Positions 721 to 18,859 of a DNA stretch of 64,000 nucleotides are shown one piece after another. This DNA comes from Ezakiella sp. (GTDB lineage: Bacteria; Bacillota; Clostridia; Tissierellales; Peptoniphilaceae). The DNA lies in the NCBI GenBank assembly GCA_022766605.1, contig JALEOH010000008.1:1-64000 (forward strand), read 5' to 3'. The notes under the pieces were generated by a model. It worked only from the letters and a program-made list of their open reading frames with translations. It was not told where the DNA came from and searched no databases. Within the stretch, counting starts at the first letter, position 1, and the number at the start of each line of letters is the position of its first letter. A program made the position numbers and the translations under genes.

Positions 721-1435
721 CTTTATCTCCTTCGCTGGACTTTGCAAACAACTCTGCAATGATTAAATCTTCGGGAGTTGTTATTTTTATATTGTCATAG
801 CTTCCCATGACCATGGTTACTGGTATGCCTATCTTTTCAACTAAGCTTGAATCGTCGGTCGCCTCAATTCCTTCTCTAGCAGCATATACATAAGCTCTTC
901 TTAGATCTTCTGCCATAAATACTTGTGGAGATTGGGCCTGCCACAAAAGCGATCTCTTTGGGGTTAAATGTACAATCTCGCTTCCGTCGTCTATAGTCAT
1001 CTTAATAGTATCTTTAACCGGAACCCCAACGCAAACAGCCCTTTTTACCATCAACTCTTCGAGCGAAGACTCAATTGTTTCAATGTGAATAAAAGGCCTT
1101 GCTCCATCATGAGTCAAAAGCACATCTACATCATCGGGTAGTCTATTGAGTCCATTTTTAATGGACTTTTGCCTGGTGTTTCCTCCCGCAATTACGTCTT
1201 TAACTTTAAAAAAATCAGACTCACCAATTATATGCTCCCACACATAATCTACTTCTTCTTCACGGGCAATTACATATATATCATCGATATAATCGCAATC
1301 TTCAAATTTTTGTATGGCATGAGCAAGTACTGGCTTGCCATCGATTTTAATAAATGTCTTATTGATATCCGATTTCATTCTATTGCTCATTCCAGCAGCT
1401 GCAATCAGGACTGCCACTTTCATATTGTCTATCAT
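710..1435 (-). CDS. ispD: 2-C-methyl-D-erythritol 4-phosphate cytidylyltransferase
   Basis: IspD transfers CMP from CTP to MEP in the MEP isoprenoid pathway. The 241-residue protein has the nucleotidyltransferase signature AAAGMSNRMKSDINK near the N terminus, THDGARPF in the middle and ATDDSSLVE before the C terminus, all as in IspD. The first ATG (1435) lies 7 nt after the yacL stop, and a second ATG four codons in (1423) is also possible; neither has a strong Shine-Dalgarno, so coupling to yacL is likely. Its 3' end overlaps ispF, the next enzyme but one in the pathway. Confidence 0.95.
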   Translation of the reverse strand: MIDNMKVAVLIAAAGMSNRMKSDINKTFIKIDGKPVLAHAIQKFEDCDYIDDIYVIAREEEVDYVWEHIIGESDFFKVKDVIAGGNTRQKSIKNGLNRLPDDVDVLLTHDGARPFIHIETIESSLEELMVKRAVCVGVPVKDTIKMTIDDGSEIVHLTPKRSLLWQAQSPQVFMAEDLRRAYVYAAREGIEATDDSSLVEKIGIPVTMVMGSYDNIKITTPEDLIIAELFAKSSEGDKDEL

Positions 1436-1442
1436 AATTTAT

Positions 1443-2546
1443 CTAATTTTCATCCTGTGTTAACTTTGCAAATATCATTCTGCCTGCTGAGGTCTGTAAT
1501 ACCGAGGTGACAATTACATCTAAAACCTTATTTACATGCTCTTTGCCATTTTCAACTACAACCATGGTGCCATCGTTTAAAAAGCCCACTCCTTGACCTA
1601 ACTCTTTGCCCTCTTGAGTTATGCTAATATTTAAACTCTCGCCAGGCAAGACCACTGGTCTTAATGCGCCACTTAAATCATTGATATTTAGCACAGTTAT
1701 ATTTCTTACAGTTGCTACTTTATTTAAATTGTAGTCATTGGTCATTACAACTCCATGATTTTTATTAGCAACCTCCAACAGTGCGATATCCACTGACATT
1801 TTCTTATCCTTATCTAAATCTACTACGCGAACTTGACTTGGAAATTCCTCACGCAAATCTCCAAGTATATCAAGTCCATGACGTCCGCGTTGTCTTTTTT
1901 GTGAATCAGAAGAATCAGCAATAAATTGCAATTCTTCAAGCACAAATGACGGTATTAATAGATTGCCATCGATAAATCCCGTCCTCATAATGTCCAGTAT
2001 TCTTCCATCTATTATTACTGAAGTATCCAGATATTTATCAGGAGCAAAATGACCTTCGCTCTTTTTATCATCTTTATTCTTTACAACCTCGACTCCTTTT
2101 AATTTGATATTTCCAATTAGCTTTCTAACATCATCTATCCTTCTAATGGCGATGGTCGTTGTAATTAGAGTAATAACTATATATGTTAAGACCGAAAGCA
2201 CTCCAGACAAAACTGGAATTTGAATCTTTGAAATAAGCGTTACAAGTAGCGCCGATATTAAAAGACCGATCACCAGTCCAATCGTCCCCATAATAACATC
2301 AAGTGCATTTAACTTTCTTACGGCTATATCAACCGAGTCGGCAAGCTTCTTAACTCTATCTATAAAAAAATTGGATGATAAATAAAATATAATAGAAAAA
2401 ATTGCAATTGAGCCTACATAGGCTAATACTCTATAGATAGTTTTAGAAAAAGTTATATCAACTATTGAAATTAAAATAAAGGCTATCGCATATCCGATAG
2501 CTCCTCCAATTATGGTTAAAAACCACCGTATTATCTTGTTTACCAT
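1443..2546 (-). CDS. yacL: Membrane-anchored PIN/TRAM domain protein (YacL family)
   Basis: The 367-residue protein has four hydrophobic segments in its first 150 residues, then a PIN nuclease-like domain with acidic residues in DTSVIIDGR, LEELQ and TNDYN. A C-terminal TRAM-type RNA-binding domain follows (PVVLPGESLNISI through GFLNDGTMVVVENG). YacL-type proteins are widespread in Firmicutes, often next to ispD, and are proposed ribonucleases at the membrane; the activity here is inferred. It lies between carD and ispD with short gaps, in the same order as in many Firmicutes. Confidence 0.9.
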   Translation of the reverse strand: MVNKIIRWFLTIIGGAIGYAIAFILISIVDITFSKTIYRVLAYVGSIAIFSIIFYLSSNFFIDRVKKLADSVDIAVRKLNALDVIMGTIGLVIGLLISALLVTLISKIQIPVLSGVLSVLTYIVITLITTTIAIRRIDDVRKLIGNIKLKGVEVVKNKDDKKSEGHFAPDKYLDTSVIIDGRILDIMRTGFIDGNLLIPSFVLEELQFIADSSDSQKRQRGRHGLDILGDLREEFPSQVRVVDLDKDKKMSVDIALLEVANKNHGVVMTNDYNLNKVATVRNITVLNINDLSGALRPVVLPGESLNISITQEGKELGQGVGFLNDGTMVVVENGKEHVNKVLDVIVTSVLQTSAGRMIFAKLTQDEN

Positions 2547-2576
2547 TTTACCTCCTTCTCTTATGGATGAGGAGAG

Positions 2577-3065
2577 CTACTCTTCTTCCATAAATATATA
2601 TTTATTGATCTTATTGGTCGCCATCTCTTGGTCGACGTCATAAGCAAGCATCATCTCGCTTACCAAAAGATCCATAGCTCCATTTAGCATTTTACGATCT
2701 CCACCTGAAAGTGTTCTTTCTTTACTTAAAATTTTAAGATCGCGAACTACCTCAGCAAGATCGGTTATCTCGCCTGTCTTCATCTTCTCAAAATTGTCCC
2801 TATGCCTATGATTCCAGTTTTTATTGATATCTTCTCCCTCGGCTTTTAGAGTATTCAATATATCGTCTAAATCTTTTCTATCGATAATTGGTCTTAAACC
2901 CAGTTTTTCTGCGCTATCAACTGGAACTGAAATGATCATATCTCCAACGGGAACTTTAATTATATAATAATCCTTTGCTTCATTTAATATTGTCTTTTGT
3001 TCGATAGCAGTAATAGTACCTGCGCCATGCATGGGGTAACTAACTTTATCGCCAATCTTATACAT
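2577..3065 (-). CDS. CarD family transcriptional regulator
   Basis: The 162-residue protein has the CarD/CdnL/TRCF N-terminal domain (YKIGDKVSYPMHGAGTITAI), which in known members binds the RNA polymerase beta subunit, followed by a helical domain resembling the DNA-contacting C-terminal part of CarD. The frame extends 12 codons further upstream, but the ATG at 3065 sits just after a G-rich Shine-Dalgarno (GGGGGTGG) and starts at the conserved domain. It is the first gene of the carD-yacL-ispD-ispF-mrp group, with its own consensus promoter at 3104-3132. Confidence 0.92.
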   Translation of the reverse strand: MYKIGDKVSYPMHGAGTITAIEQKTILNEAKDYYIIKVPVGDMIISVPVDSAEKLGLRPIIDRKDLDDILNTLKAEGEDINKNWNHRHRDNFEKMKTGEITDLAEVVRDLKILSKERTLSGGDRKMLNGAMDLLVSEMMLAYDVDQEMATNKINKYIFMEEE

Positions 3066-3103
3066 ATTCCACCCCCAGTAACTTTTATACCCAAAGTTCA
3101 ATC

Positions 3104-3132
3104 ATTATAATCAAATTAATAGCATCTATCAA
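3104..3132 (-). promoter_or_regulatory. Sigma-A promoter for the carD operon
   Basis: On the minus strand TTGATA (3127-3132) and TATAAT (3104-3109) are separated by exactly 17 nt, about 40 nt upstream of the carD start. The -35 box abuts the end of the PAP2 gene. Confidence 0.75.
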
Positions 3133-3738
3133 TTAAGCTAATCGTGGAAAAGTTTTATAAGACAATTTATAAATCAATATGCTGACTATATATCCACTTA
3201 AGAGTCCACCGACTATATCGCTAAAATAATGCACACCAAGAAGGATTCTACTTAATGCAATTGAAAAAGCAAGCAGGCTTCCCAAAAATAAAGTAATGCG
3301 CGAAGCTCTTTTAGTATAGTTATTTTTTACCATAAAATAAATCATGGATATAAAACTGGACACCGCATTGGAGTGTCCGCTTGGATAAGAGTAACCTATC
3401 TCCTCTACAAGTCTATAAAATGGCCTTGGCCTTAGATAGATCTCCTTTATTAAAAGATTTATCAATGCCGTAATAATCATAGTTAGTATAAGTACTAGCG
3501 CTTCCTTTCTTTTATTTAAAAACAATAAAATCGCCGAGGCTATCGCTACTATAATAATAGTTCCACTTGTGCTAAAGAGATTTGAAAAAGTTTCTACTAT
3601 ATCTACTTTATTTACATCATCTAAATTATTTAATAAAAAATGTTCACTTACATAGTGATCTACGCCTTCTGTCAAGGAAAAGAAAACCGCAAGGCTTACT
3701 ACAATAAATAATATTATAGCTAGTCTTAACTTTTTCAT
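3133..3738 (-). CDS. PAP2-family membrane phosphatase
   Basis: This 201-residue protein has about five transmembrane segments and the three PAP2 motifs: KEIYLRPRP (residues about 107-115), SYPSGHS and SRILLGVHYFSDIVGG. Such enzymes remove phosphate from lipid phosphates, including undecaprenyl diphosphate, at the outer face of the membrane. Substrate choice cannot be read from the sequence. The start overlaps the stop of the HAD gene by 4 nt (ATGA), so the two are probably co-translated. Confidence 0.88.
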   Translation of the reverse strand: MKKLRLAIILFIVVSLAVFFSLTEGVDHYVSEHFLLNNLDDVNKVDIVETFSNLFSTSGTIIIVAIASAILLFLNKRKEALVLILTMIITALINLLIKEIYLRPRPFYRLVEEIGYSYPSGHSNAVSSFISMIYFMVKNNYTKRASRITLFLGSLLAFSIALSRILLGVHYFSDIVGGLLSGYIVSILIYKLSYKTFPRLA

Positions 3739-4475
3739 TTCATTATATCCTTTAATACCAATTTTATTATCTCATGCGCACTCTTAGCCCTAACTACATC
3801 TAAATCGACCTCATTGTTAGAAAAATAAATTGCATTCATTCCAACGCTCATAGCGCCGAAATAGTCGTTGTTAATATTGTCTCCAATCATAAAGCTCTCA
3901 TCTGCCGTTGCTCCAGTAGCTTTGATTATTTCATTATAAAAGCTTGGGTTGGGCTTGCCCTTCTTATATTCCCCTGAGATAAATATATCGTCAAAATGAT
4001 TATATAGCATATTTGCTTCTATTTTATTTTTTTGTACCTCAAGTATACCATTGGTAATTAAGCCTACCTTTGCAAACAGCTTAATATAGCTAATGGATTC
4101 TATCATACCCGGCATCACTTTATTATAATCATATCTAGATTCATAGAGAGTTGATTCTAATTTGTCTTTGTCGATGTTTTTATCGGGATATGCATCAGAT
4201 AATTCGCGGAAAACCGCCTCCTTATATCCAAGAAGATCTCCATATTCATATTCATCGATAAAATAATAGTCTATTGGATCGATCCCAACAGAGTTATTGA
4301 TCTCATAGTCCATAAATCGATACATATGTTTTTTTAATATCGTACGAAATATCATGCGGAATTTTTTTTCAGATGCTCCAATATTAAGAGCTCGTCTTAA
4401 TTTTTTGTATATAGCAAGATTGACCGCATTGGTATCTATTATAGTATCATCTAGGTCAAAAAAAATATATTTCAC
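3735..4475 (-). CDS. HAD-superfamily hydrolase (YjjG/YfnB-like)
   Basis: The 246-residue protein has the four HAD motifs: FFDLDDTIID (nucleophile D7, D9), GLITNG, the lysine in KKGKPNPSFY, and MIGDNINNDYFGA. Subfamily I cap and overall layout resemble YjjG/YfnB nucleotide phosphatases; the substrate is not determinable. The start is GTG at 4475 with AAGGAG about 10 nt upstream. An out-of-frame ATG lies nearby and was not used. It is followed by the PAP2 gene with a 4-nt overlap. Confidence 0.85.
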   Translation of the reverse strand: MKYIFFDLDDTIIDTNAVNLAIYKKLRRALNIGASEKKFRMIFRTILKKHMYRFMDYEINNSVGIDPIDYYFIDEYEYGDLLGYKEAVFRELSDAYPDKNIDKDKLESTLYESRYDYNKVMPGMIESISYIKLFAKVGLITNGILEVQKNKIEANMLYNHFDDIFISGEYKKGKPNPSFYNEIIKATGATADESFMIGDNINNDYFGAMSVGMNAIYFSNNEVDLDVVRAKSAHEIIKLVLKDIMK

Positions 4476-4504
4476 TTATCATCCACTCCTTGTCTTATTA
4501 ATTT

Positions 4505-4533
4505 ATTATAGCAAAATTTAAAAGTAAATTCAA
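4505..4533 (-). promoter_or_regulatory. Sigma-A promoter for HAD-PAP2 genes
   Basis: Minus strand TTGAAT (4528-4533), 17-nt spacer, TATAAT (4505-4510). It is divergent from the tyrS promoter, and the two -35 boxes lie only a few bases apart. Confidence 0.7.
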
Positions 4534-4536
4534 ATA

Positions 4537-4565
4537 TTGACAATAAAAAAATAATCTGCTATAAT
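4537..4565 (+). promoter_or_regulatory. Sigma-A promoter for tyrS
   Basis: Perfect TTGACA (4537-4542) and TATAAT (4560-4565) with a 17-nt spacer. The predicted start of transcription, near 4572, is right at the base of the first leader helix. Confidence 0.85.
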
Positions 4566-4570
4566 TTAAT

Positions 4571-4706
4571 CAATCGTTGATACGGACGATGTTTTTCCAC
4601 TGAGAAATACAGTGGCGCATGCTTTCGCGTTACAGGCATATTAAGATGGATTTCCCATGAAGATCGGTGGTACCGCGTTTACGACGCCTGATTATGGGAT
4701 TTTTTT
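4571..4706 (+). promoter_or_regulatory. T-box riboswitch leader of tyrS (compact Stem I)
   Basis: The T-box core GGTGGTACCGCG lies at 4666-4677. A terminator stem (CCCAT 4654-4658 with ATGGG 4694-4698) is followed by seven T residues, as in transcriptional T-boxes that read tRNA charging. Upstream, a short helix ATCGT/ACGAT (4573-4577, 4586-4590) holds TAC, the tyrosine codon, at 4581-4583, which fits a specifier. A second hairpin pairs 4597-4602 with 4610-4615. The leader from promoter to T-box is only about 95 nt, with no room for the usual long Stem I. T-box identity is clear; the exact specifier helix is inference. Confidence 0.82.
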
Positions 4707-4734
4707 ATTACCAAAAATTATAGGAGATGATAAA

Positions 4735-5949
4735 ATGAAATTAGTTGATGAATTAAAAGAGCGTGGACTCATCTATCAGATGACCTATCCTGAAGAACTA
4801 GAACAAAAATTAAATGAAGAAAGCATTACTTTTTATGTAGGCTTTGACTGTACCGCAGATTCACTTACCGCTGGACATTATCTTGTAATCACACTTATGA
4901 AAAGGCTTCAAATGGCTGGGCATAAACCAATATGCTTAATCGGTGGAGGCACTACTTTAATCGGAGATCCAAGTGGTAGAAATGATATGAGATCACTTAT
5001 GGGTACAGATTTTATCGATCATAATGCAGAAAGATTTAAATCTCAACTATCCAGATTTTTAAATATCGATGGAGTCAATGGCTTTTTTGCAAATAATGGC
5101 GACTGGCTAAGAAATCTCAATTTTTTGGATTTCAATCGTGAAATAGGAGTACATTTTTTAGTCAATAATATGCTGAATTTAGATTCATATAAGAATAGAC
5201 TTAAAGACGGACTGACTTTCTTTGAATTTTCATATATGCTCTTGCAATCATATGACTTCTTGAAACTCTATCGCGACTACGGCTGTACTCTGCAAGTCGG
5301 TGGTAGCGATCAGTGGAGCAATATACTCGGCGGTTATGACCTCGTTCGTAAAATTGAAAATGCCAATGTATATGCTATGACCATACCTCTACTTGTAAAT
5401 GCCGATGGAGTAAAGATGGGAAAATCAATGGGCAATGCAATATGGCTCGACGAAGAGAAGACCTCAGTATATGATTTATATCAATATTTTAGAAATGTCG
5501 ATGATCGCGATGTAGAAAAATTCTTAAAACAACTCACATTCTTGAGTCTTGATAATATAGATGATATAATTAAAAATGAGGATATCAATCGTCAAAAAGA
5601 AATACTAGCATTTGAAATTACCAAAGATATTCACGGTGAAGAAAAAGCTCGCACAGCAATGGAAACTGCAAGAAACCTATTTAGCGGTGAAATGGATCTT
5701 CTGAATATGCCCTCATTTGAAATCGACAAAGAATTGATTAAAGATGGTATCGGCATATTAAATCTACTCGTAGAAACAGGACTTTGCTCCTCAAATAGCG
5801 AAGCTAGAAATCTTGTAAAAGGTGGCGGAGTAACCATCGACGATGAAAAGATAGATGACCCTCGTGCTACACTTAATGCTAATCGCTTCGAAAAAGATAT
5901 TGTAATTAAAAAAGGCAAAAAGACTTTCTTAAAAGTAAGTGTAAAATAA
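4735..5949 (+). CDS. tyrS: Tyrosyl-tRNA synthetase
   Basis: This class I synthetase charges tRNA-Tyr. The 404-residue protein shows YVGFDCTADSLTAGHYL (HIGH-type region), GGSDQWSNI (tyrosine pocket) and VKMGKSMGN (KMSKS loop), followed by a C-terminal S4 RNA-binding domain. The frame is open from 4657, but those codons lie inside the T-box terminator; the ATG at 4735 follows AGGAG by about 8 nt and starts at the conserved N terminus. It is a single-gene unit controlled by the T-box leader. Confidence 0.97.
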   Translation: MKLVDELKERGLIYQMTYPEELEQKLNEESITFYVGFDCTADSLTAGHYLVITLMKRLQMAGHKPICLIGGGTTLIGDPSGRNDMRSLMGTDFIDHNAERFKSQLSRFLNIDGVNGFFANNGDWLRNLNFLDFNREIGVHFLVNNMLNLDSYKNRLKDGLTFFEFSYMLLQSYDFLKLYRDYGCTLQVGGSDQWSNILGGYDLVRKIENANVYAMTIPLLVNADGVKMGKSMGNAIWLDEEKTSVYDLYQYFRNVDDRDVEKFLKQLTFLSLDNIDDIIKNEDINRQKEILAFEITKDIHGEEKARTAMETARNLFSGEMDLLNMPSFEIDKELIKDGIGILNLLVETGLCSSNSEARNLVKGGGVTIDDEKIDDPRATLNANRFEKDIVIKKGKKTFLKVSVK

Positions 5950-5971
5950 AAAACGAGCGGAGATCCCGCTC
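5948..5971. terminator. Terminator between tyrS and engB
   Basis: Stem GAGCGG (5955-5960) / CCGCTC (5966-5971). On the minus strand it is followed by T6, so it terminates lon-engB well; on the plus strand the T tract is weak. Confidence 0.7.
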
Positions 5972-5980
5972 ATTTACATA

Positions 5981-6574
5981 TTAACTACTAGCTATTATAC
6001 TCTCTATTATTTGACGAATTTCATCTAATCCATCTTTTTTTGTCGAGGAAAACGGGATTATATCGTGATTTGCTCCAAGTTTATCGCGAATAATCTTAAT
6101 ATGCTTTTGATATTGTCCGCGCGATATCTTATCTGCTTTTGTGGCAATAATAATCGAGCTTAGACCTGTGTGAAGTATATATTCATACATGTCAAGATCA
6201 AGTGCGCTAGGCTCATGTCTTATATCTACAAGTTGAAATACCGCTACTAATTTTTCTCTTGTTTCAAGATAAGTGTTGATATATTTTGCCCACGCTTCCA
6301 TCTCGCTCTTAGCAGCGGCTGCATATCCATAACCAGGTAAGTCGACCATTCTAAGCTCGTCATTAATATTGTAAAAATTAATTGTGCGAGTCTTCCCAGG
6401 CTTTGATGAGGTGCGAGCCAAGTTTCTTCTATTCATAAGTGCATTTAAAAACGAACTCTTTCCGACATTGCTGCGTCCAGCAAGTGCAATTTCGGGCATA
6501 TTTGCCTCTGGATAGCCTTCAGGCTTGACTGCTACTGCCTCAAGCTCTGCTTTTATTATCTTATTTAATGGCAT
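5981..6574 (-). CDS. ysxC: Ribosome biogenesis GTPase YsxC/EngB
   Basis: YsxC/EngB assists assembly of the large ribosomal subunit. The 197-residue protein has G1 GRSNVGKSS, G2 KPGKTRTINFY, G3 DLPGYG, G4 TKAD and a G5-like FSSTKK, in the order and length typical of the family. It overlaps the 3' end of lon by 14 nt; the lon-ysxC order is common in Firmicutes. Confidence 0.95.
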   Translation of the reverse strand: MPLNKIIKAELEAVAVKPEGYPEANMPEIALAGRSNVGKSSFLNALMNRRNLARTSSKPGKTRTINFYNINDELRMVDLPGYGYAAAAKSEMEAWAKYINTYLETREKLVAVFQLVDIRHEPSALDLDMYEYILHTGLSSIIIATKADKISRGQYQKHIKIIRDKLGANHDIIPFSSTKKDGLDEIRQIIESIIASS

Positions 6575-9641: not shown

Positions 9642-11240
9642 TTATTCTCTTATAATTGCATGTACTGGGCAGACGCTTTCGCAGTTGCCACATTTTATAC
9701 ATGCATTTTGATCTATTATATGCTTTTCTTTTCTCTCTCCACTTATACAATTTACCGGGCAATTCTTTGCGCAGACAGTGCATCCAATGCACTTGTCGGT
9801 TATGAAGAAATTTAGCAAATCCTTACAGTGATGAGCTGGGCATTTCTTTTCATTTACATGTGCGAGATATTCATCTTTGAAATAGTGGATGGTGCTTACC
9901 ACGGGATTGCATGCTGATTGACCAAGTCCACAAAGTGAAGTCTTAGTTATTAGATCGCTTAAATCCATTAATTCATCGAGTATACTCTCATCCGCCTCGC
10001 CTTTTGTGACTTTAGTTAACATCTCAAGCACTCGCATAGTTCCTTCGCGACATGGTGTACATTTACCGCAGCTTTCATCTACGCTAAATTCCATGAAGAA
10101 GCGAGCGATATCTACCATACAGTCAGTCTCATCCATTACAACCATTCCGCCTGAACCCATTATTGAACCAATCTTCTTTAGTGTTGCAAAGTCAATTGGA
10201 AGATCAAAATATTCGGGTGGTATGCATCCTCCAGATGGACCTCCTGTTTGAACTGCTTTAATCTTCTTACCATCTGGTATGCCGCCTCCAATGTCAAAGA
10301 CTATTTCATTGATTGTTGTGCCCATCGGCACTTCTACCAGTCCCGAGTGAACTACCTTGCCTACTAAAGCAAATACTTTAGTGCCTGAAGAGTCTTCCGT
10401 GCCAATTGAGTGATAATATTCTGCTCCATGATCCAGTATAAATGGGATATTGGCAAAAGTCTCTACATTATTTAATACAGTTGGCTTTCCCCAAAGTCCC
10501 TTTACCGTTGTTCTAAATACTTTGGGACGTGGCATTCCGCGCCTTCCTTCGATGCTCTCCATAAGAGCTGTGCCCTCTCCACAAACAAATGCACCACTAC
10601 CAAGTCTAAGTGAAATATCAAACGAGAAACCGCTTCCCATTATATTGTCACCAAGTAGGCCCATTGCTTTGGCATCGGCTATTGCTTTTTCAAGTCTTTT
10701 AACCGCCTTTGGATACTCTGCACGAATATATATAAATCCTTCGTCTGCACCAATTGCACGCCCACATATTGCCATTCCCTCAAGCACTGAATGTGGGTCG
10801 CCCTCCATTATGGAGCGATCCATAAATGCACCTGGGTCACCTTCATCTGCATTCATTACTACATATTTTTTGCCAGGCCCCATATCATAAGCGCCTTGCC
10901 ATTTAACTCCGGTAGGGAAGCCTGCTCCTCCACGTCCACGAAGTCCAGAGCCTGTTACGCAGTCTATAATCTCCTGCCCATTCATGTCGAATATCGCCTT
11001 TCTCAAAGCCTCATATCCTCCAAGAGCAATATAGTCTTCAATCGAATCGGGATCTATTATGCCAAAATTTTTAAGGGCAATTCTCTTTTGATGCTTGTAA
11101 AATTCACCGGCAAGTTTTGGATAATCGGCTGTGTTATCGATATTTTCATCAGCGTCCAATCTTTTATTTAATTCAGGCAGATGCTTTTCTTTGATTTCGC
11201 GAATGATATCCGCCGTTTTTTTAGTTTCAACTACAGTCAT
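9642..11240 (-). CDS. NuoF/HydB-like NADH-binding flavoprotein subunit with C-terminal ferredoxin domain
   Basis: The 532-residue protein has the NuoF core: GLRGRGGAGFPTG and NADEGDPGAFMDR (FMN and NADH binding), then CGKCTPCREGT plus a later Cys for a [4Fe-4S] cluster. Its C terminus adds a two-cluster ferredoxin domain (CIGCTVCAKNCP and CIKCGNCESVCP). The N-terminal thioredoxin-like [2Fe-2S] domain of longer HydB proteins is absent. In this family it passes electrons between NAD(H) and the Fe-S chain. Placed after the FdhA and NuoE-like genes, it is the likely diaphorase of the formate dehydrogenase. Start ATG at 11240 with AGGAGG 4 nt upstream. Confidence 0.9.
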   Translation of the reverse strand: MTVVETKKTADIIREIKEKHLPELNKRLDADENIDNTADYPKLAGEFYKHQKRIALKNFGIIDPDSIEDYIALGGYEALRKAIFDMNGQEIIDCVTGSGLRGRGGAGFPTGVKWQGAYDMGPGKKYVVMNADEGDPGAFMDRSIMEGDPHSVLEGMAICGRAIGADEGFIYIRAEYPKAVKRLEKAIADAKAMGLLGDNIMGSGFSFDISLRLGSGAFVCGEGTALMESIEGRRGMPRPKVFRTTVKGLWGKPTVLNNVETFANIPFILDHGAEYYHSIGTEDSSGTKVFALVGKVVHSGLVEVPMGTTINEIVFDIGGGIPDGKKIKAVQTGGPSGGCIPPEYFDLPIDFATLKKIGSIMGSGGMVVMDETDCMVDIARFFMEFSVDESCGKCTPCREGTMRVLEMLTKVTKGEADESILDELMDLSDLITKTSLCGLGQSACNPVVSTIHYFKDEYLAHVNEKKCPAHHCKDLLNFFITDKCIGCTVCAKNCPVNCISGERKEKHIIDQNACIKCGNCESVCPVHAIIRE

Positions 11241-11248
11241 ATGCCCTC

Positions 11249-11740
11249 CTATTTCCCCCTCAATTCTTTAATAGTCTTTTTAACCATCTTCTTTTCATAG
11301 TGACCGATGTTTTCATCGTTGATAGTAACAACAGGCGCAACCGCGCAATCTCCTACGCATCTCGTTTCGATTATAGAAAACATCTTATCGGGAGTGGTTT
11401 CACCTTTTTTAATGCCTAGCTCGTCTTCAAATGCATGAATCAAATCCTCTGCTCCCTTAACATAGCAAGCTGTTCCCATGCAAATGGAAATTCTGTTCTT
11501 TCCCATCGGGATAAAGGTAAATTGCGCATAGAAAGTTGCTACTCCATATACGGTAGCTACTGGGAGCGATAGCTTCTTTGCAATCTCCTCAATTATCTCA
11601 CGAGGTAAATAGCCGAATAGATTTTGTGCTTTTTGAAGCACTGGCATCAAAGCTCCATCCATATTCTTTTTCTCTTCGATGAATTGATCAAACTCCTTTA
11701 ATTCATCGATATATTCATTTCTATCAAATACAAATTCCAT
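11249..11740 (-). CDS. NuoE/HydC-like thioredoxin-fold [2Fe-2S] subunit
   Basis: This 163-residue protein has the NuoE layout: an N-terminal helical part (QKAQNLFGYLPREIIEEIA) and a thioredoxin-like domain with four Cys, in ICMGTACYVKG and RCVGDCAVAP. It should carry one [2Fe-2S] cluster and pair with the NuoF-like flavoprotein. It starts 1 nt after the fdhA stop, with GGAGG overlapping the end of fdhA, so translation is coupled. Confidence 0.92.
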   Translation of the reverse strand: MEFVFDRNEYIDELKEFDQFIEEKKNMDGALMPVLQKAQNLFGYLPREIIEEIAKKLSLPVATVYGVATFYAQFTFIPMGKNRISICMGTACYVKGAEDLIHAFEDELGIKKGETTPDKMFSIIETRCVGDCAVAPVVTINDENIGHYEKKMVKKTIKELRGK

Positions 11741-11741
11741 A

Positions 11742-14474
11742 CTATGCCTCCACCACTTCGGTTAGCGGAACAAATCTCTTTATATCATCGTCCGCATCTT
11801 TTACCTTCTCAAGCTTAACTGCAGATATCTTATATTCGGCTGTTAAAGTTATTGGATCGAATTCATCATTAGTCAGCTCATTGACCGGACTTTCCTTAAA
11901 GTGGAAGGTCATAAACATATTTCCCGGTTGAACGCGATCAGTAATTGTAACTCGAGTAATTATGCTACCACGCCTTGAACTTACTCTTGCGTAGTCAAGT
12001 TCTTTTAGTCCAAGCTTTTTAGCATCTTCTGGATTTACTTCTGCTAGCTCATATGGATTGATCTCCTCAAGCTTAGGCGAGAATCTAGTGGTGATATTAT
12101 AGTGACCGAGTTTGCGTCCAGTATTTAATAATATTGGATATTCTTCATCGCATAATTCTGCTGGTTCCTCATATTCAACTGGAACCATACGAGCTTTGCC
12201 ACGTGGGAAGACTCCCTTGTGAAGATATTTAGTACCAGGGTGATCAAGTGTAGGACATGGCCATTGAAGTCCTTCATTGCCAAGTCTTTCATAAGTCATG
12301 CCGCGATATGAAGGCATTGCTGCTCTTATATCGTCAAAGATATCCTCTGCACTTCTCCATTCAAAACCCTTGGTCACTCCCATTTTATTTGCAATTAACT
12401 TAACTATTTCCCAATCTGGCTTACATAGTCCTGGAGCGTCAACTGCTTTTCTTACCCTTTGGACACGCCTTTCACTTGCAGTAAAAGTACCTTCCTTTTC
12501 GGCATAGCAAGCAGCAGGGAATATTACATCGGCATATTTTGCCGTCTCACTCATAAAGATTTCCAAGCTGACTCTAAAATCGAGGGCCTCAAAGGCACGT
12601 CTTACGTGATTGGCATTTGGGTCGGATAGTACAGGATCTTCTCCCATTACTATCATAGCTTTCAACTCGCCTTCAAGTGCTTTATCAAACATCTCAGGAA
12701 TCCTTAATCCAAGCTTTGGATTAAGACTTGTCTCCCATAGCTCTTCGAAATTTTCTCTCGCTTTATCATCTATTACAGATGGATAGCCTGGATAACTATT
12801 TGGAAGAGCCCCCATATCACAAGCGCCCTGAACATTATTTTGTCCACGAAGTGGATTAACCCCAGCGCTTTCAATGCCAACATGTCCTGTAATAAGTGCC
12901 AGATTAGCTAGATTCATAACATTCGAAGTGCCAGTAGTATGCTCAGTAATTCCAAGTGTGTAGAATATTCCAGCCTTTTCAGTTTCGGCATAAAGCTTAG
13001 CTACATTATATATCATCTCTTCAGATATGCCTGTTATTTCGCTAGTAGTCTTTAAATCGTAGGCTTTTACAGTTTCTTTAACTGCATCGAAGCCTTCAAC
13101 TCTTTGCTTTATATAGTCTTCATCTTCCCAACCATTTTCGATTATTACATTCATAATGCCATTTATTAGGGCGGCATCGGTGCCGGATTTGATTGGTAGA
13201 TAATAATGAGCCATGCCTGCAAGCTCGGTCTTTCTTGGGTCGACCACAATTGCCTTTGCTCCACGAATTATGGCTTGCTTCATTTTATTTCCGATGATCG
13301 GATGAGCCTCGGTTGTATTGGATCCAATTATCAAAAATACATCTTCATCCAATATTTCATTTACGCTATTAGTCATAGCGCCGCTTCCTAGTGTAGTTGC
13401 AAGACCTGCAACTGTTGGAGCATGTCAGGTCCTTGCGCAGTGGTCTACGTTATTGGAGCCAACCACCACTCTCATCCATTTTTGGAATGCAAAATTATCC
13501 TCATTGGTGCAACGAGCACTTGAAAGTCCAGCAATTGAATCTGGCCCATATTCTTTTTTAATCTCATTCAATCTCTTTGCAGTATAATTTAGAGCTTCTT
13601 CCCAAGTTGCCTTGCGAAATTCTCCATTTTCTTTTATAAGCGGAGTCGTAAGTCGCTCTTTAGAATGAATCATATCAGTGTGGAAGCGCCCTTTAACGCA
13701 CATTTGACTACCATTAATTGGTGCATCTTCAGCTGGAGTTACTCCAACCACTTTATTATCGACCACATTTAGGTCGAAATTACATCCCGTTCCACAAAAT
13801 GGACAGGTCGTCCTAACCTTCTTCATCTCCCATGGTCTATATCCAGCAAGTTGCTTATTCATTAGCGCTCCCGTTGGACAAACTGAGATACATTGACCAC
13901 ACATGCGGCATATGTCGCTATTTATACTTTGGTCAAATGCCGTCGTTACAGTTGAATAAAATCCACGACCCACAAAATCATAAGTTCCAGTAACTTGAAC
14001 TTCTTTACAAATTCTTACGCATTTACCACATTTAATGCATTTATTTTGATCGCGAATCATAATTGGATTGGCATCGTCTATCTTAAATTCACTAACCGCC
14101 CCATCTGAGAAAGGATTTTTTACTCCATATTTAAAACAATGATCTTGAAGATCACAATGGCCTACCTCACCACAAGTTAAGCAGTCAACTGGATGATTAG
14201 CCATCAACAGCTTTAAAAGACCCTTTCTGTATTTAATAAGCCTCTCGCTATTCGTAACAACTTCCATCCCCTCTTTACATAGAGTAGAACATGCTGTCTC
14301 GGGCTTACTCTTGCCATTTATTTCAACTACGCACATTCTGCATCCCGCAAATGGAGATAGATCCTTTAAATAGCAAAGCTGAGGAATTCTTATTCCAACA
14401 CTTGCCGCAGCATCGATTAAATTGGTCCCCTTCTCGACCGAAACATCGATGCCATCAATTTTTAAATTAATCAT
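11742..14474 (-). CDS. fdhA: Selenocysteine-containing formate dehydrogenase alpha subunit (NAD-linked type)
   Basis: The reading frame runs through one in-frame TGA (13425-13427) read as selenocysteine, giving 910 residues with Sec350. The context VDHCART-U-HAPTVAGLATT is the formate dehydrogenase active site, and a SECIS hairpin follows. Domains in order: plant-type [2Fe-2S] (C34, C45, C48, C62); His-Cys [4Fe-4S] (H94, C98, C101, C107); two-cluster ferredoxin (C146-C156, C189-C199); Mo/W-bis-MGD oxidoreductase starting with [4Fe-4S] C224, C227, C231; C-terminal dinucleotide-binding domain. Formate oxidation to CO2, or the reverse, is known for the family. A GTG at 14480 is in frame, but the ATG at 14474 has GAGGTG at proper distance and overlaps the preceding TAA. 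Genes for selenocysteine insertion are not in the window. Confidence 0.95.
13396..13427 (-). promoter_or_regulatory. UGA selenocysteine codon and bacterial SECIS hairpin in fdhA
   Basis: On the minus strand the TGA (13425-13427) is followed, after 12 nt, by GTTGCA-GGTCT-TGCAAC (13396-13412): a perfect 6-bp stem with a GGTCT loop. Bacterial SelB recognises a hairpin with a GGUC-type apical loop at this distance from UGA, as in E. coli fdhF. Confidence 0.93.
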
Positions 14475-14923
14475 TACCACACCTCATTAAATGCAATATT
14501 ATTGTAAATTTCTTCAAGACTAGCCTTTCTATTGGAACAGGCATTTGCCATGTCCCTTAACATGTCTTTATTACTCAAATCCTCTTCCTCTTCCATCAGC
14601 ACCTTATATGTATCCATAAGCTGTTGCTCCTTCTTCATGGCAAGAGCCACTGCATCCTTGAATTCCATATTGGGTGAAAATTCTATATCATCACTTACCA
14701 CTTCTTCTGTCACACCAAAATCGCGGTCGGTCTTTGCAACTTTAAGACTATAAGGTCTATCTTTATAACTATTTAAAAATCTCTCGTATTTCTTTTTAGA
14801 AATTATCATAGAGTTAAAAAAGTCCTTTAAGATATCGTCTTTACTCTTCTCCTTGGCATCTTCATAAAATTTTTTGATCGACTCTTCAATTTCAATCGCA
14901 AAATTTAAAATTTCCTTACTCAT
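14474..14923 (-). CDS. Ferritin-like/rubrerythrin-fold protein lacking histidines
   Basis: The 149-residue acidic helical protein resembles the ferritin-like superfamily (FAIEIEESIKKFYEDA, then FKDAVALAMKKEQQLMDTY), in two helical pairs. It has no histidine at all, so the ExxH ligands of di-iron rubrerythrins are missing and iron binding in the usual way is unlikely. It is the first gene of the formate dehydrogenase operon, and its stop overlaps the fdhA start (TAATG). A structural or assembly role for the enzyme is possible but only inferred from position. Confidence 0.65.
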   Translation of the reverse strand: MSKEILNFAIEIEESIKKFYEDAKEKSKDDILKDFFNSMIISKKKYERFLNSYKDRPYSLKVAKTDRDFGVTEEVVSDDIEFSPNMEFKDAVALAMKKEQQLMDTYKVLMEEEEDLSNKDMLRDMANACSNRKASLEEIYNNIAFNEVW

Positions 14924-15005: not shown

Positions 15006-15042
15006 TAATTCATTATGATAAATTATCTTAACATTTTTTTAC

Positions 15043-15085
15043 AAAAAAAAGCCTATATTACTAGGTCGAAGTTGACCATTAGGCT
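15043..15085 (-). terminator. Terminator at the 3' end of the OsmC-like gene
   Basis: AGCCTA (minus strand, 15080-15085) pairs with TAGGCT (15050-15055), followed by T8. The upstream arm lies inside the last codons of the OsmC-like gene, so the terminator overlaps coding sequence. Confidence 0.6.
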
Positions 15086-15535
15086 CGTAGTTTTCTTAAT
15101 TAAATTGTAAATTGGATTTTCATCAAGCAATTGTGTAAGCAATAAATTATTACTCTCTTCGTCACCATCAGCATAATAATATATTTTAATGTCGATATAG
15201 TCTATATAACTATTTTCATAATATCCACGCACATCAAGTGCATTTAGAGGATTATTTAATTTGAATTCGATCTTTCCTTCTATTTCTTCAATTATTACAT
15301 CTCTCTTCTTGGCTTTTTTTACACTCATAAGCATTATGCTCGATAAAAGAGATCCCATAAAATAATTTATTGCCGAGATATTTTCTGCCTCACTATCAAA
15401 ACTAATAGAGCTATCTACTACAAATGAAGAATTAGCTGTATATATATGAACATTTTTTAAATCATTCATAGTCGCTCTTAAAGAAAAAAGCGAATAATCA
15501 ATGCCCTCAAGTGCATTGCCATCTATCTTTGACAT
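15053..15535 (-). CDS. OsmC-like protein
   Basis: The 160-residue protein matches the OsmC fold: an N-terminal strand region, a central helix (ENISAINYFMGSLLSSIMLMS) at the place where OsmC proteins have their first Cys helix, then IEEIEGKIEFKL, DYIDIKIYYY and a C-terminal helix with PIYNLIKKTTSL. Both redox cysteines of classical OsmC/Ohr are absent, so peroxide reduction is unlikely. It is the last gene of the four-gene cassette and its start lies 13 nt inside the MetE-like gene, next to AAGGAAAG. OsmC assignment is moderately sure; the function is unknown. Confidence 0.6.
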   Translation of the reverse strand: MSKIDGNALEGIDYSLFSLRATMNDLKNVHIYTANSSFVVDSSISFDSEAENISAINYFMGSLLSSIMLMSVKKAKKRDVIIEEIEGKIEFKLNNPLNALDVRGYYENSYIDYIDIKIYYYADGDEESNNLLLTQLLDENPIYNLIKKTTSLMVNFDLVI

Positions 15536-16677
15536 ATTGCTTTCCTTGCCTCATAGATTGCATCAAGCTTGCTTTTGATATGATCATAAGTGTTGACAGG
15601 GCGATTGGCAAATGTTGCAAATCCACAGTCTGGATTTAGCATAATCATATCTAGACTTTGGTATTTTTCTGCTTCGCGAATTTTATTTACTATAAAATCA
15701 ACGGATTCTATCTCATCAAGTCGAGGATTTACTACGCCAAGGCCAAGGATAATCTCCTTCATCTTGGGCTCAGCATAAAAGGAAGCTATCTCTCCTGCTC
15801 TATCAGTGGAAAATTCGAGGAATAATATATCCGCATCTATGTTTGAAAATAATTTCAAAAGAGGAGTATATGGACCTTCAAGCAATATGGTTTCGTCCTT
15901 ACTCCAATTGCCTCTGCAAACATGGAGTGCTACCTTGGATTTAGCTTTATCGACCTTTGAGATGACGGATTTAATAAGATGTGTTGCAAACTCAAGCTCT
16001 TCAGTTGGATCTTTTCTTTCGGATAGTGCAGCACACATAAAGGTGCGTGGACGTCCATCGGTAAAAACCACCTCGGTTAATACCGGTTCATCAAATTGTA
16101 TTATATCGACTCCAAGCTCTTGCAATTCTTCTATCTCATCTTGATAGATTTTGATAACATCCTCTCCTAGCTCCTCTTTGGAATCATATCCATTTTTAGA
16201 TAGTTCCGGCAGCCACATCGACCTTGTTACGAGATAAGGCCCAGGGAGAGTTATCTTGATCTTCTTGTCGGTAAATTTTTTTATTCTCTTTAGCTCATCC
16301 ACCACAATTCCATCTCTTCTTGCAATCTTTCCCGTACATATTGCATTTTTAATTGCAATTGCAGGCACATCTAAAGTATTTAATATTTGTTCAAATGCCT
16401 TTTTATCTTCTACATAGTCGAGCATCTCGCTCATGGACATCTGCCTAACTCCATCAAGGGCATTTGAAATAAAACTTACATAGTTGTCGCGATGAAGCTC
16501 GCCCGAGGTTATATAATCAACCCCATGCTCCTCTTGAAGTTTTATTATCTCAGATGTTTTTTCATCTATCAATTTGTAGAATTCTGTGTCACTCATCTTG
16601 CCAGTACGGCTTAGACGAAGTGCACGAAGCACTTCATCTGTACGTGGCATAGAGCCCATTAAGGATATCTCAAGCAT
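15523..16677 (-). CDS. Short MetE-like cobalamin-independent methyltransferase (C-terminal catalytic domain only)
   Basis: The 384-residue protein is a single MetE/UROD-type TIM barrel. It has SGELHRDNYVSF, TLPGPYLVTRSMW, DIIQFDEPVLTE, LHVCRGN (zinc His and Cys) and LNPDCGFA (zinc Cys). Full MetE is about 750 residues with an N-terminal barrel that is missing here. Short MetE-like proteins methylate thiols from various methyl donors; the real donor and acceptor are unknown. The start overlaps the stop of the PhnD-like gene (TAATG), and the end overlaps the OsmC-like start, so it is part of a coupled cassette. A role in sulfur, selenium or methyl-group metabolism is inferred. Confidence 0.85.
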   Translation of the reverse strand: MLEISLMGSMPRTDEVLRALRLSRTGKMSDTEFYKLIDEKTSEIIKLQEEHGVDYITSGELHRDNYVSFISNALDGVRQMSMSEMLDYVEDKKAFEQILNTLDVPAIAIKNAICTGKIARRDGIVVDELKRIKKFTDKKIKITLPGPYLVTRSMWLPELSKNGYDSKEELGEDVIKIYQDEIEELQELGVDIIQFDEPVLTEVVFTDGRPRTFMCAALSERKDPTEELEFATHLIKSVISKVDKAKSKVALHVCRGNWSKDETILLEGPYTPLLKLFSNIDADILFLEFSTDRAGEIASFYAEPKMKEIILGLGVVNPRLDEIESVDFIVNKIREAEKYQSLDMIMLNPDCGFATFANRPVNTYDHIKSKLDAIYEARKAICQR

Positions 16678-17474
16678 TAAAGAAACCTCAAATACTCATT
16701 TGCGCTAGAGATTTGTTCATATCCACTTAGGCGACCTTTCTTCCATTCTTTCAAACCTTCAAGATCTAGTATTTCCTTATCCTCTGGCTTGTTATAGTCC
16801 ATTTGAAGCATTATATCTTCAAATTCTCTTATTACTTCATCATCTATTTCGGGACGATAGTCAAATATACAGTGATCAAAATGCTTAGTCTCTCCAATTG
16901 CACTTAATTTCTTATCATCAACTGTTCCATCTTTCTTCCAAGCTTCCCAATTTAAATCAAGCACAAAAGCAGCATCTACTTCGCCATTTGTTAGCGCTTT
17001 AGCTGCCTCCATTTCCCCGCCGATATGATCTCCATGAAGCCCAACTCCAATGTCGAATCTCTTTTCAGTATAGTCTTTGCCAAATTCAAGATTATTTTCG
17101 TGAAGATAGTTGATTGGAATTAGCCTTGCCTGTGGTGAGTCAAGTGCACCAAAGCCGATAGTCTTTCCTTTTAACTCACTTACATCAGTTATCTCTCCTC
17201 TTCTTACAATAAGCATAGTCTTTCTATCTTGATCGGTATCTCTCATAAGAGAATATTTATATTTGCCATCGGTTCTTAAGACCACGTCCAAATGTGCAAG
17301 TGGAGAGTTCCATGCCATATCGATTTCTCCAGCAACAAGAGCATCTACTTGCATTTTATAGTCCTTAAAGAAAACCGGCTCTATTTTCATTCCAGCCTTA
17401 TCAAAAAACTTTTCTATTAACTCCCAAACAACGGTTACGCGTGGATCATATATTACAGCACCAATCCTAAGCAT
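16677..17474 (-). CDS. PhnD/SsuA-like substrate-binding domain protein without signal peptide
   Basis: The 265-residue protein has the two-lobed periplasmic-binding fold of the PhnD family (LRIGAVIYDPRVTVVWELI, DALVAGEIDMAWNSPLAH, ELKGKTIGFGALDSPQARL, NGEVDAAFVLD). It has neither a signal peptide nor a lipobox: the fold begins at residue 2, and the upstream extension of the frame is not hydrophobic. It would therefore stay in the cytosol, and no ABC permease or ATPase gene is adjacent. ATG at 17474 overlaps the preceding stop (TAATG) and has AGGAG upstream. It may act as an enzyme, sensor or carrier of a small anion rather than as a transporter part. Confidence 0.8.
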   Translation of the reverse strand: MLRIGAVIYDPRVTVVWELIEKFFDKAGMKIEPVFFKDYKMQVDALVAGEIDMAWNSPLAHLDVVLRTDGKYKYSLMRDTDQDRKTMLIVRRGEITDVSELKGKTIGFGALDSPQARLIPINYLHENNLEFGKDYTEKRFDIGVGLHGDHIGGEMEAAKALTNGEVDAAFVLDLNWEAWKKDGTVDDKKLSAIGETKHFDHCIFDYRPEIDDEVIREFEDIMLQMDYNKPEDKEILDLEGLKEWKKGRLSGYEQISSANEYLRFL

Positions 17475-18598
17475 TAGATTAACTCCTGACCTGTTACAGC
17501 TTTTCCAAGCCATACTATGAGCACATCTACTGATGGCGCCATTATTTGACCAGCATATGAATCTCTCATATATCTTTCAATTGCATCAGCCTTGTTATAG
17601 CTCTTGCCTCCGCCAATTCTCATCGCCCACTTAGAGCATTCAATAGCACCTTCTGATGCATTTATACGCGATGCAAGTATCTTTGGAAGTGCATCCTCCT
17701 CCCCACAAGCTGCTGACCTTGCAGCCTCAAGTGTGAAATACTTTGCCGCATTTGCTCTATTATATAAATTTGCCAAGTGGATTTGGACGGTTTCTATATT
17801 TATTAAGCCTTGTCCATTTGGATAGACTCTTTCAATTGCATGCTTTCTTGCGGCCTCATATATTGCAAGAGATAGTCCCGAATAGACGCTTGCAAGTCCA
17901 ACTACAAAATATGGAGCGACTACAGCAAAAATTTGTTCAACTGCAGTTCCCGGTTCACCAACCATGTATTTATCTTCTAGCTTGCAATCAGTCAAAGTCA
18001 TTGGAGAGCTGACATTGCCGCGCATGCCAACGCCATTCCATTCATTTAGATCAAACTTAACTCCTTCTTTTTCAAGTGGAATCAGCCAGTTATCTGTCAG
18101 ACCTTCCTTGGTAGAAGGAGCTGATATCAAATAAAAACTAGCTTGCTCTGCAGATGTTACCATGGATTTTCTTCCATTTAATACAGTATAGCCATCCTTG
18201 TGGTCGGCTTTAATATTTGGAATATAAAAGTGAGTTCCAGTTCCAAATTCACTATATGCAAGTGCGCAGAATTTTCCTTCATTTACAATTTTTTCGCATA
18301 CTTCTTTTTTGAGCTCGTCGCTGCCATATGTCAAGACAACCATCAAGCATACATTATGCATCATATAGCAAAGCCCTGCCGATGCTGAACTTTCTGCAAA
18401 TGCCATGCATACTCTTGCATGCTCTTGAATCGTTGCTCCCTCTCCTCCAAATTCCTTTGGCACCATGAGCTTTAAAAATCCTTCTTCTCCCATCGCCTTA
18501 AAAGCTTCTACTGGGAATATCGCCTCGTCGTCCATCTTCTTTGCAATTGGCTCTATATGAGCTAATGCAAATTCCTTTGCCTTTTCGTAAATTGTCAT
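17474..18598 (-). CDS. Acyl-CoA dehydrogenase-fold flavoprotein (likely non-dehydrogenase)
   Basis: The 374-residue protein has the three ACAD domains: an N-terminal helical domain, a central beta domain (ALAYSEFGTGTHF, LNGRKSMVTSAEQASFYL) and a C-terminal four-helix bundle with RIGGGKSYNK. In true acyl-CoA dehydrogenases the last bundle carries EIYEGT with the catalytic Glu; here the same place reads GQIMAPSVD, so the base is missing. Similar MAP/MGP motifs occur in ACAD-fold monooxygenases of the DszC/SfnC type, which makes a flavin-dependent oxygenase or related reaction more likely than beta-oxidation. ATG at 18598 follows AAGGAGGT. It is the first gene of the cassette. Confidence 0.8.
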   Translation of the reverse strand: MTIYEKAKEFALAHIEPIAKKMDDEAIFPVEAFKAMGEEGFLKLMVPKEFGGEGATIQEHARVCMAFAESSASAGLCYMMHNVCLMVVLTYGSDELKKEVCEKIVNEGKFCALAYSEFGTGTHFYIPNIKADHKDGYTVLNGRKSMVTSAEQASFYLISAPSTKEGLTDNWLIPLEKEGVKFDLNEWNGVGMRGNVSSPMTLTDCKLEDKYMVGEPGTAVEQIFAVVAPYFVVGLASVYSGLSLAIYEAARKHAIERVYPNGQGLINIETVQIHLANLYNRANAAKYFTLEAARSAACGEEDALPKILASRINASEGAIECSKWAMRIGGGKSYNKADAIERYMRDSYAGQIMAPSVDVLIVWLGKAVTGQELI

Positions 18599-18859
18599 AG
18601 TGACCTCCTTATTATTTTGTGTTTGCTTATATAAATTCACACCAATCTAATTTAAATATATACTATAATTTCTCCAATGTCCAATAAAATTTCTTTATAT
18701 GATTTCGATTTGCTATAGATAAAATTTATAACCATATATTTATTAAATAATTTTACAATCATTTTACAGATCAATAATCATTACTTAACATATGAGCCTT
18801 ATAATCAAGACGTAAACTTTTCGTGCACATTGTGCAATATGAAATTTAAGGAGGATTAA
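18599..18859 (+). promoter_or_regulatory. Intergenic region with Pho box and promoter of alkaline phosphatase
   Basis: Direct repeats with an exact 11-bp period: TTTACA (18752-18757), TTTACA (18763-18768), ATAATC (18774-18779, weak) and TTAACA (18785-18790). A -10 TATAAT follows at 18800-18805, 9 nt after the last repeat, with no separate -35. This is the layout of PhoB/PhoP-dependent promoters. A further inverted repeat TGCACA-T-TGTGCA (18824-18836) lies just downstream of the predicted start of transcription. AAGGAGG (18850-18856) precedes the gene. Nothing else was recognised in this gap. Confidence 0.75.

Follow-up and report, generated by a model that had tools for sequence, protein, structure and literature searches.

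The window analysed here, a stretch of 64,000 nucleotides from contig JALEOH010000008.1 of an Ezakiella sp. (assembly GCA_022766605.1), contains four adjacent open reading frames (ORFs) whose combination raises the question of what they do together. They lie on the minus strand, from 18598 to 15053, and encode, in this order, an acyl-CoA dehydrogenase (ACAD)-like, a PhnD-like, a MetE-like and an OsmC-like protein. The stop of the ACAD-like gene and the start of the PhnD-like gene share one base in a TAATG overlap (17472..17476, minus), as do the stop of the PhnD-like gene and the start of the MetE-like gene (16675..16679, minus). The MetE-like and OsmC-like genes overlap by 13 nt (15523..15535, minus). 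Our proposal, to which we assign a probability of roughly 40%, is that this cassette constitutes one pathway that would free selenide from a small methylated selenium compound for selenophosphate synthesis.

The gene set is conserved far beyond the window. A scan of named genomes with the PhnD-like gene returned at least 542 encoded relatives, of which 80 were kept as loci; the locus counts given below refer to these, and single loci are cited by L numbers. Genes of all four families adjoin one another in 69 of the 80 loci. By record titles, these 69 represent about 12 phyla, several of them known from metagenome-assembled genomes (MAGs) only, and the side-by-side cassette is spread from Bacillota to Planctomycetota. 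The order ACAD-PhnD-MetE-OsmC was found in 37 of the 69 and OsmC-ACAD-PhnD-MetE in 20, while OsmC-PhnD-MetE-ACAD (5 loci), ACAD-OsmC-PhnD-MetE (4) and arrangements with a doubled or split gene (3) are rarer. Such constant content in shuffled order is as expected of a functional unit. The sequence-only reading had taken the overlaps to imply a single tightly coupled unit; the overlaps were confirmed, and since the same families stand together in these relatives, a purely local assembly is ruled out.

Of the 11 loci with less than the full set, four (L072, L103, L104 and L117) are on contigs under 6 kb, and L075 lies where its contig ends. The MetE-like gene is missing from L097, the ACAD-like gene from L098 and the OsmC-like gene from L113, and L115, L116 and L118 hold the ACAD-PhnD pair only. 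In L116, a gene that follows and overlaps the PhnD-like gene (10794-11975) has a weak likeness to DUF455, below the cut-off. Separately, an actinobacterial ACAD-PhnD pair with no MetE or OsmC partner is carried on plasmids in L028, L029 and L030. The pair lies beside radical S-adenosylmethionine (SAM) and CMD genes in L028 and L029, the CMD gene being a few kb away; L029 also has deiodinase-like, disulfide and CcdA genes, and a DoxX gene adjoins the pair in L030.

Closer to the window, nine of 61 related genomes, the window's own included, carry the PhnD-like gene at 58% identity or more, and all of the eight others (8/8) share the window's gene order for the four. When 299 Bacillota drawn evenly were searched at E ≤ 1e-40, only the centre genome carried the gene, and the cassette is thus uncommon within Bacillota. 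When 46 PhnD-like proteins were placed in a tree, 29 of them formed a clade (support 100/100) that unites Bacillota with Haemophilus, Campylobacterales, an alphaproteobacterial MAG, a coriobacterial MAG and a Synergistaceae MAG. This mixture of phyla suggests that the cassette likely moves between lineages. No fifth conserved partner emerged, as no Pfam family occurred in more than three of the 104 scanned flank proteins, a tally that covered 104 of 148 listed proteins, the other 44 including those of distant phyla. Neighbour clustering over all loci found, beyond the four families, an ABC ATPase in 11 loci and an SDR in 8; these are large common families in varied places with no fixed position, and the gene caller was crude in GC-rich loci.

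The MetE-like protein (384 amino acids; 15523..16677, minus) bears on the chemistry of the cassette. Its PF01717 catalytic domain (107 bits) spans residues 7-358, and there is no N-terminal folate-binding half; a PF08267 match covers residues 126-201 only, inside the catalytic stretch. The zinc residues H252, C254, E288 and C351 and the homocysteine residues S9, E60 and D196 are all invariant in 73 aligned sequences, H252-x-C254 being assigned by motif and the five others located via alignment to solved MetE. The roles of these residues in MetE are given in section 11 of PMC7857596. That a MetE-type protein keeps the zinc and homocysteine sites and has no folate half suggests that homocysteine receives its methyl group from a different donor. 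A search with the MetE-like protein gave at least 5416 clusters at E ≤ 1e-60 among 8000 scored candidates; few of the 120 matches listed are named, and the sole name among them is cobalamin-independent methionine synthase II family protein. In Companilactobacillus versmoldensis the gene lies in two frames (L068:10811-11996), which reflects either a break or a sequencing error.

The ACAD-like protein (374 amino acids; 17474..18598, minus) has the N-terminal, middle and C-terminal domains PF02771, PF02770 and PF00441 above cut-off, and therefore the acyl-CoA dehydrogenase fold with its domains for binding flavin adenine dinucleotide. The catalytic glutamate of the IYEGT motif, which reads IMAPS in the window, gives way to Ala in 79 and to Gly in the other three of 82 aligned sequences, a position set by alignment to SCAD, the alternative position used by isovaleryl-CoA dehydrogenase lying outside this count. 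The ACAD-like gene is present in three copies in L034 (9466-12873), a genome of the window's family, and in two copies in Gemella sanguinis (L054:7550-9972), in both cases ahead of the PhnD-like gene.

The PhnD-like protein (265 amino acids from its ATG; 16677..17474, minus) was assigned to its Pfam family above cut-off. The best structure matches of its model, which has a predicted local distance difference test score (pLDDT) of 95.5, are binders of phosphite, methylphosphonate, phosphate, hypophosphite, arsenate and arsenite. The model thus has the fold of phosphonate-binding proteins; it is closest to the phosphite and methylphosphonate binders, and AioX (arsenite) and ArrX (arsenate) were also matched. 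In the alignment of homologues H201 and C202 are invariant, as are D149 and E154, and the His-Cys pair aligns with Gln-Tyr of PtxB-type and Asp-Tyr of PhnD1-type proteins. Its start, MLRIGAVIYD, contains no signal-like segment, and no ABC permease or ATPase gene lies inside the cassette.

The OsmC-like protein (160 amino acids; 15053..15535, minus) has no Pfam or NCBIfam match of its own in the window. PF02566 is above cut-off in six of six scanned cassette homologues, and all 22 matches of the AlphaFold model (pLDDT 87.5) at E ≤ 0.001 are OsmC/Ohr-type structures. The two catalytic cysteines are not conserved: the fullest cysteine column is filled in 22 of 72 proteins, and 21 of the 72 have no cysteine at all. 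In Ezakiella-type genomes a CMD (AhpD-like) gene directly follows the OsmC-like gene (L102:12427-12759 and L031:6273-6605). Taken together, these features bear out what had been read from the DNA alone, namely a one-domain zinc methyltransferase, a non-dehydrogenase flavoprotein of the ACAD fold, a cytosolic anion-binding protein and an OsmC protein which, in the sense that no cysteine column is conserved, is Cys-less.

What this set may act upon is suggested by the genomes that carry it. Fifty of the 80 genomes, picked for spread and length of contigs before any SelD result, were tested for selenium traits by family search; 47 of them have the full set, and L097, L098 and L116 do not. SelD was above cut-off in 47 of the 50 (45 of the 47 with the full set), as compared with 2 of 14 controls. 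SelA was found in 42 (39 with the full set) and SelU in 15 (15), and every one of the 50 genomes, including all 47, has SelD or SelA. SelD is accompanied by SelA or SelU in 44 of the 50 (42 of the 47) and by neither in three. Five genomes have SelU without SelA, and the cassette is present in selenocysteine (Sec)-only and selenouridine-only genomes alike. Since it accompanies either trait, and selenophosphate is all that the two have in common, the cassette more plausibly supplies selenium than puts it to a new use, and its place in the pathway is most likely ahead of selenophosphate. The genome of the window has selD elsewhere, followed by ORFs resembling selA and selB, named by likeness to L120 and, for SelB, by motif.

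This association is stronger than the background in groups where selenium use is less common. All 12 cassette-bearing Bacilli among the 50 genomes have SelD, against 89 of 299 Bacilli (30%) counted irrespective of cassette content (Fisher P 8e-7, uncorrected for kinship). In Lactobacillaceae SelD was found in 11 of 201 genomes (5%), and the two with the cassette are both among these 11 (P 0.003, in a sample whose centre genome was chosen for having the cassette).

Selenium genes also adjoin some of the loci. SelD lies 306 and 487 nt upstream of the full set in two Chloroflexota loci (L087 and L092), and a selenium-associated LysR gene, over its cut-off, is 23 nt from the full set in L046. The same LysR family, again over cut-off, is found by the set without MetE in L097, and SenA (selenoneine synthase) begins 62 nt after the MetE-like gene in the set without ACAD in L098. 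A SelD fragment, under the full-length cut-off, is 1.1 kb from the set in L104, a short contig with no OsmC-like gene. At greater distances, L089 has a SelB-like gene and L028 has SelD, the latter about 6 kb off. By a rough Poisson estimate, chance would place 0.24 selenium genes within 1.2 kb of the 80 loci, and six were seen (P near 2e-7, or 5e-6 with L087 and L092 counted once); the estimate assumes five selenium genes per 4 Mb, was made post hoc and rests on flanks that were only partly scanned.

Neighbours of this kind could also be read in the opposite direction, the cassette using selenophosphate instead of supplying it. The PhnD-like protein would then bind the product of SelD, and the four proteins would build a new small selenium compound. 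The closeness of the PhnD-like fold to phosphite and methylphosphonate binders fits such a use, as do SelD beside L087 and L092, its fragment by L104 and SenA beside L098. Synthesis from selenophosphate is made less likely by the fact that SelD is seldom an orphan in carrier genomes, as the counts with SelA and SelU show, and it offers no obvious role for the homocysteine site of the MetE-like protein. We regard it as quite improbable.

Several observations weigh against the release of selenide as the function of the cassette. SelD is not above cut-off in L080 and L108, which have the full set, nor in L116, which has the pair only. It is found in 198 of 299 Bacillota (66%), and this background weakens a naive reading of 47 out of 50. 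The cassette Bacilli are interrelated, and counting them as five lineages raises the P value to about 0.002. Among the window's relatives the selenium link is uninformative because SelD is already present in 50 of 61, in 9 of 9 carriers and 41 of 52 non-carriers (P 0.19). A further 26 of the tested genomes, many of them MAGs, fall outside the Bacillota-type group, and the SelD backgrounds cover Bacillota-type groups only. Only six loci stand beside a selenium gene and most cassettes do not; three of these six are incomplete, and those with full sets represent only two independent lineages. The ACAD-PhnD pair occurs without the other two genes in L115-L118 and L028-L030; these two proteins can thus act by themselves, and some of the machinery may serve another function. 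The adjoining BCCT and OpuAC transporters may point to betaines over selenium. EgtU is a fused transporter of the OpuAC type and MetT a methionine transporter of the NhaC type; neither serves as evidence here, nor does the point that M. tuberculosis is not known to have SelD. Finally, the models used detect no MetH or MetE in the genome of the window, so that a plain methionine-synthase role is possible. The link of the cassette to selenium is therefore good, not proof.

The last two points belong to another explanation, according to which the cassette adds a fifth type to the folate-independent methionine synthases. The MetE-like protein would make methionine from homocysteine, and the ACAD, PhnD-like and OsmC-like proteins would deliver the methyl group from a donor without selenium, such as a betaine or sulfonium, as MesX serves MesD. 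In Companilactobacillus, no more than 5 kb from the set, there are genes for MmuM, a homocysteine S-methyltransferase (PF02574, 273.8 bits), and for a permease like MmuP, the S-methylmethionine permease (656 bits, under the cut-off of 716). Two of four Haemophilus loci have a BCCT transporter gene after the set, and in L098, an acidobacterial MAG, a fused betaine-type binding protein/permease, OsmC, PhnD, MetE and SenA form one run (462-6366). MmuM and the MmuP-like permease count in favour of the selenide pathway as well; like the BCCT transporters, they fit methylated onium substrates, not selenium in particular. The conservation of all zinc and homocysteine residues also suits a methionine synthase, and no MetH or MetE is above cut-off in 20 of the 48 full-set genomes considered (the 47 and the window's). 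MetH or MetE is above cut-off in the other 28, however, and several of the 20 have a split or partial MetH. Moreover, this explanation leaves the presence of SelD or SelA in every full-set genome tested and the adjoining selenium genes unexplained, and an oxygen-dependent step of the MesD/MesX kind is not to be expected in the strict anaerobes among the carriers. We consider it unlikely.

The cassette might instead belong to a pathway for sulfur, phosphonates or arsenic that has no connection with selenium, its selenium company then reflecting a shared lifestyle. The PhnD-like fold matches AioX and ArrX, and in two of the three plasmid loci the actinobacterial ACAD-PhnD pair lies beside radical SAM and redox genes. 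A shared lifestyle accounts poorly for the co-occurrence within Lactobacillaceae, where so few genomes have SelD, and no arsenic or phosphonate family recurs among the best 25 of 107 flank families. This too appears improbable.

In the selenide pathway that we propose, the MetE-like zinc enzyme would, in the manner of MetE, bind homocysteine in its thiolate form. The methyl donor might be methylselenol, dimethylselenide, selenomethionine or a selenonium compound, and the products would be methionine and demethylated selenium, that is, selenide for SelD, with neither folate nor corrinoid being involved. The roles of the other proteins are suggested with more reserve. The PhnD-like protein, with its His-Cys pair, could hold a small selenium anion such as methylseleninate, selenide or selenophosphate. 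The ACAD-like flavoprotein may carry out a redox or elimination step on this anion, with no acyl-CoA chemistry, and the Cys-less OsmC-fold protein may act as a binding or hand-over partner and not as a peroxidase. An organosulfur, organoselenium or methylated compound had been suggested as substrate by the sequence-only reading; co-occurrence and neighbourhood now favour organoselenium, and the substrate and the reaction remain putative. More doubtful is the wider claim that selenium metabolism has here a whole branch that had gone unrecognised. In it, four proteins would work together without corrinoid to strip methyl groups from methylated selenium, with homocysteine as acceptor and a cytosolic PhnD-fold protein as carrier of the freed selenium to SelD, and the set would have been transferred across a dozen phyla, human commensals among them.

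Apart from the corrinoid clusters that have been proposed for anaerobes (PMC10418091), little is known of how bacteria release selenium from its methylated and organic forms. If the mechanism is true, a small, portable gene set would explain the selenium supply of commensals (Anaerococcus, Ezakiella, Gemella and Haemophilus), some lactobacilli and soil bacilli. It would also give functions to four families that are now named otherwise and would link the regeneration of methionine to selenium.

The surroundings of the cassette in the window were also analysed. A weak sigma-70-like promoter match, TGGACA-17-TATATT (18655..18683, minus), was found by motif scan upstream of the first gene, in a region with 16 such matches against 17.7 in shuffles. 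A gathering-level Rfam search of eight Bacilli loci and the window revealed no SAM or other riboswitch near the cassette, and a glmS match in L052 precedes a different gene, so that riboswitch control was rejected. Where the OsmC-like gene ends, folding alone showed a terminator-like hairpin with a run of Ts, minus-strand AGCCUA...UAGGCUUUUUUUU (approximately 15042..15086, minus; -12 kcal/mol, z -1.8). The terminator that had been placed between the cassette and a selenoenzyme operon is partly borne out in this way, a scan for terminator patterns having found none. The operon itself was borne out: the formate dehydrogenase alpha subunit (11742-14480, minus) has one in-frame TGA read as Sec, U352, within CARTUHAPTV. 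The run of genes on this strand continues at 9642-11740, beyond the alpha subunit. Between the cassette and the formate dehydrogenase genes lies a small rubrerythrin/ferritin-like ORF (14474-14923, minus), with PF02915 barely above cut-off.

That the four proteins fit no described pathway, as was first supposed, agrees with the open-access literature searched, in which no pathway for the four-family set was found. The cassette is new in that no described system combining these families was found; it is real, widely conserved and undescribed in this literature. In the portions of three papers on prokaryotic selenium drawn on here (PMC5322559, PMC9312934 and PMC13188914) there are no text matches for acyl-CoA dehydrogenase, methionine synthase, phosphonate or MetE, and two of the three mention, once each in these portions, a selenocysteine-containing OsmC-like protein. 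The OsmC/Ohr peroxidases share the fold of the cassette OsmC-like protein, which is without their conserved cysteine. The binders PtxB, PhnD and HtxB differ from the cassette in that it has neither ABC transporter genes nor a signal-like start, and has His-Cys in place of the Gln-Tyr of PtxB types or the Asp-Tyr of PhnD1.

The ACAD-PhnD part of the cassette resembles the Rv1679/Rv1680 families (NF049984 and NF049985, with identities taken from NCBIfam titles), an ACAD-like and a PhnD-like pair adjacent in actinobacteria. NF049984 (Rv1679_FadE16) is the best NCBIfam match of the window's ACAD-like protein; the score of 233 bits is far under the cut-off of 600, and the window's PhnD-like protein scores 196 bits against NF049985, again far under the cut-off, here 400. 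The three plasmid loci differ further in having no MetE or OsmC partner. Rv1680 is listed in PMC8562490, as far as the part of that source drawn on goes, as a putative component of a phosphonate transporter, from structure alone.

The MetE-like protein resembles the core methionine synthases MesA-MesD, which, in the part of PMC7857596 used, also consist of the MetE catalytic domain alone with the same zinc and homocysteine residues, and of which MesD needs a partner protein too. By the descriptions in that part, the cassette is set apart from them by its partners and its selenium company; acyl-CoA dehydrogenase, OsmC and PhnD are each mentioned nowhere in the text of the paper.

The closest parallel in function would be the type 1 mlp clusters with their sdm genes, for which a corrinoid-based salvage of methyl-selenium is proposed in the sections of PMC10418091 drawn on, and 87% of whose carrier species encode the Sec machinery. 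There, zinc methyltransferases are proposed to demethylate methyl-selenium and so to recycle both the selenium and the methyl group, and a comparable company of SelD, SelA and SelU surrounds the cassette. As described in the same sections, the mlp clusters use corrinoid proteins, reactivases and Mlp methyltransferases, whereas Pfam finds none of these domains in the cassette proteins, and ACAD-, PhnD- and OsmC-like proteins are added instead. If the proposed mechanism is true, the cassette would reach by another route the result that is proposed for the corrinoid clusters.

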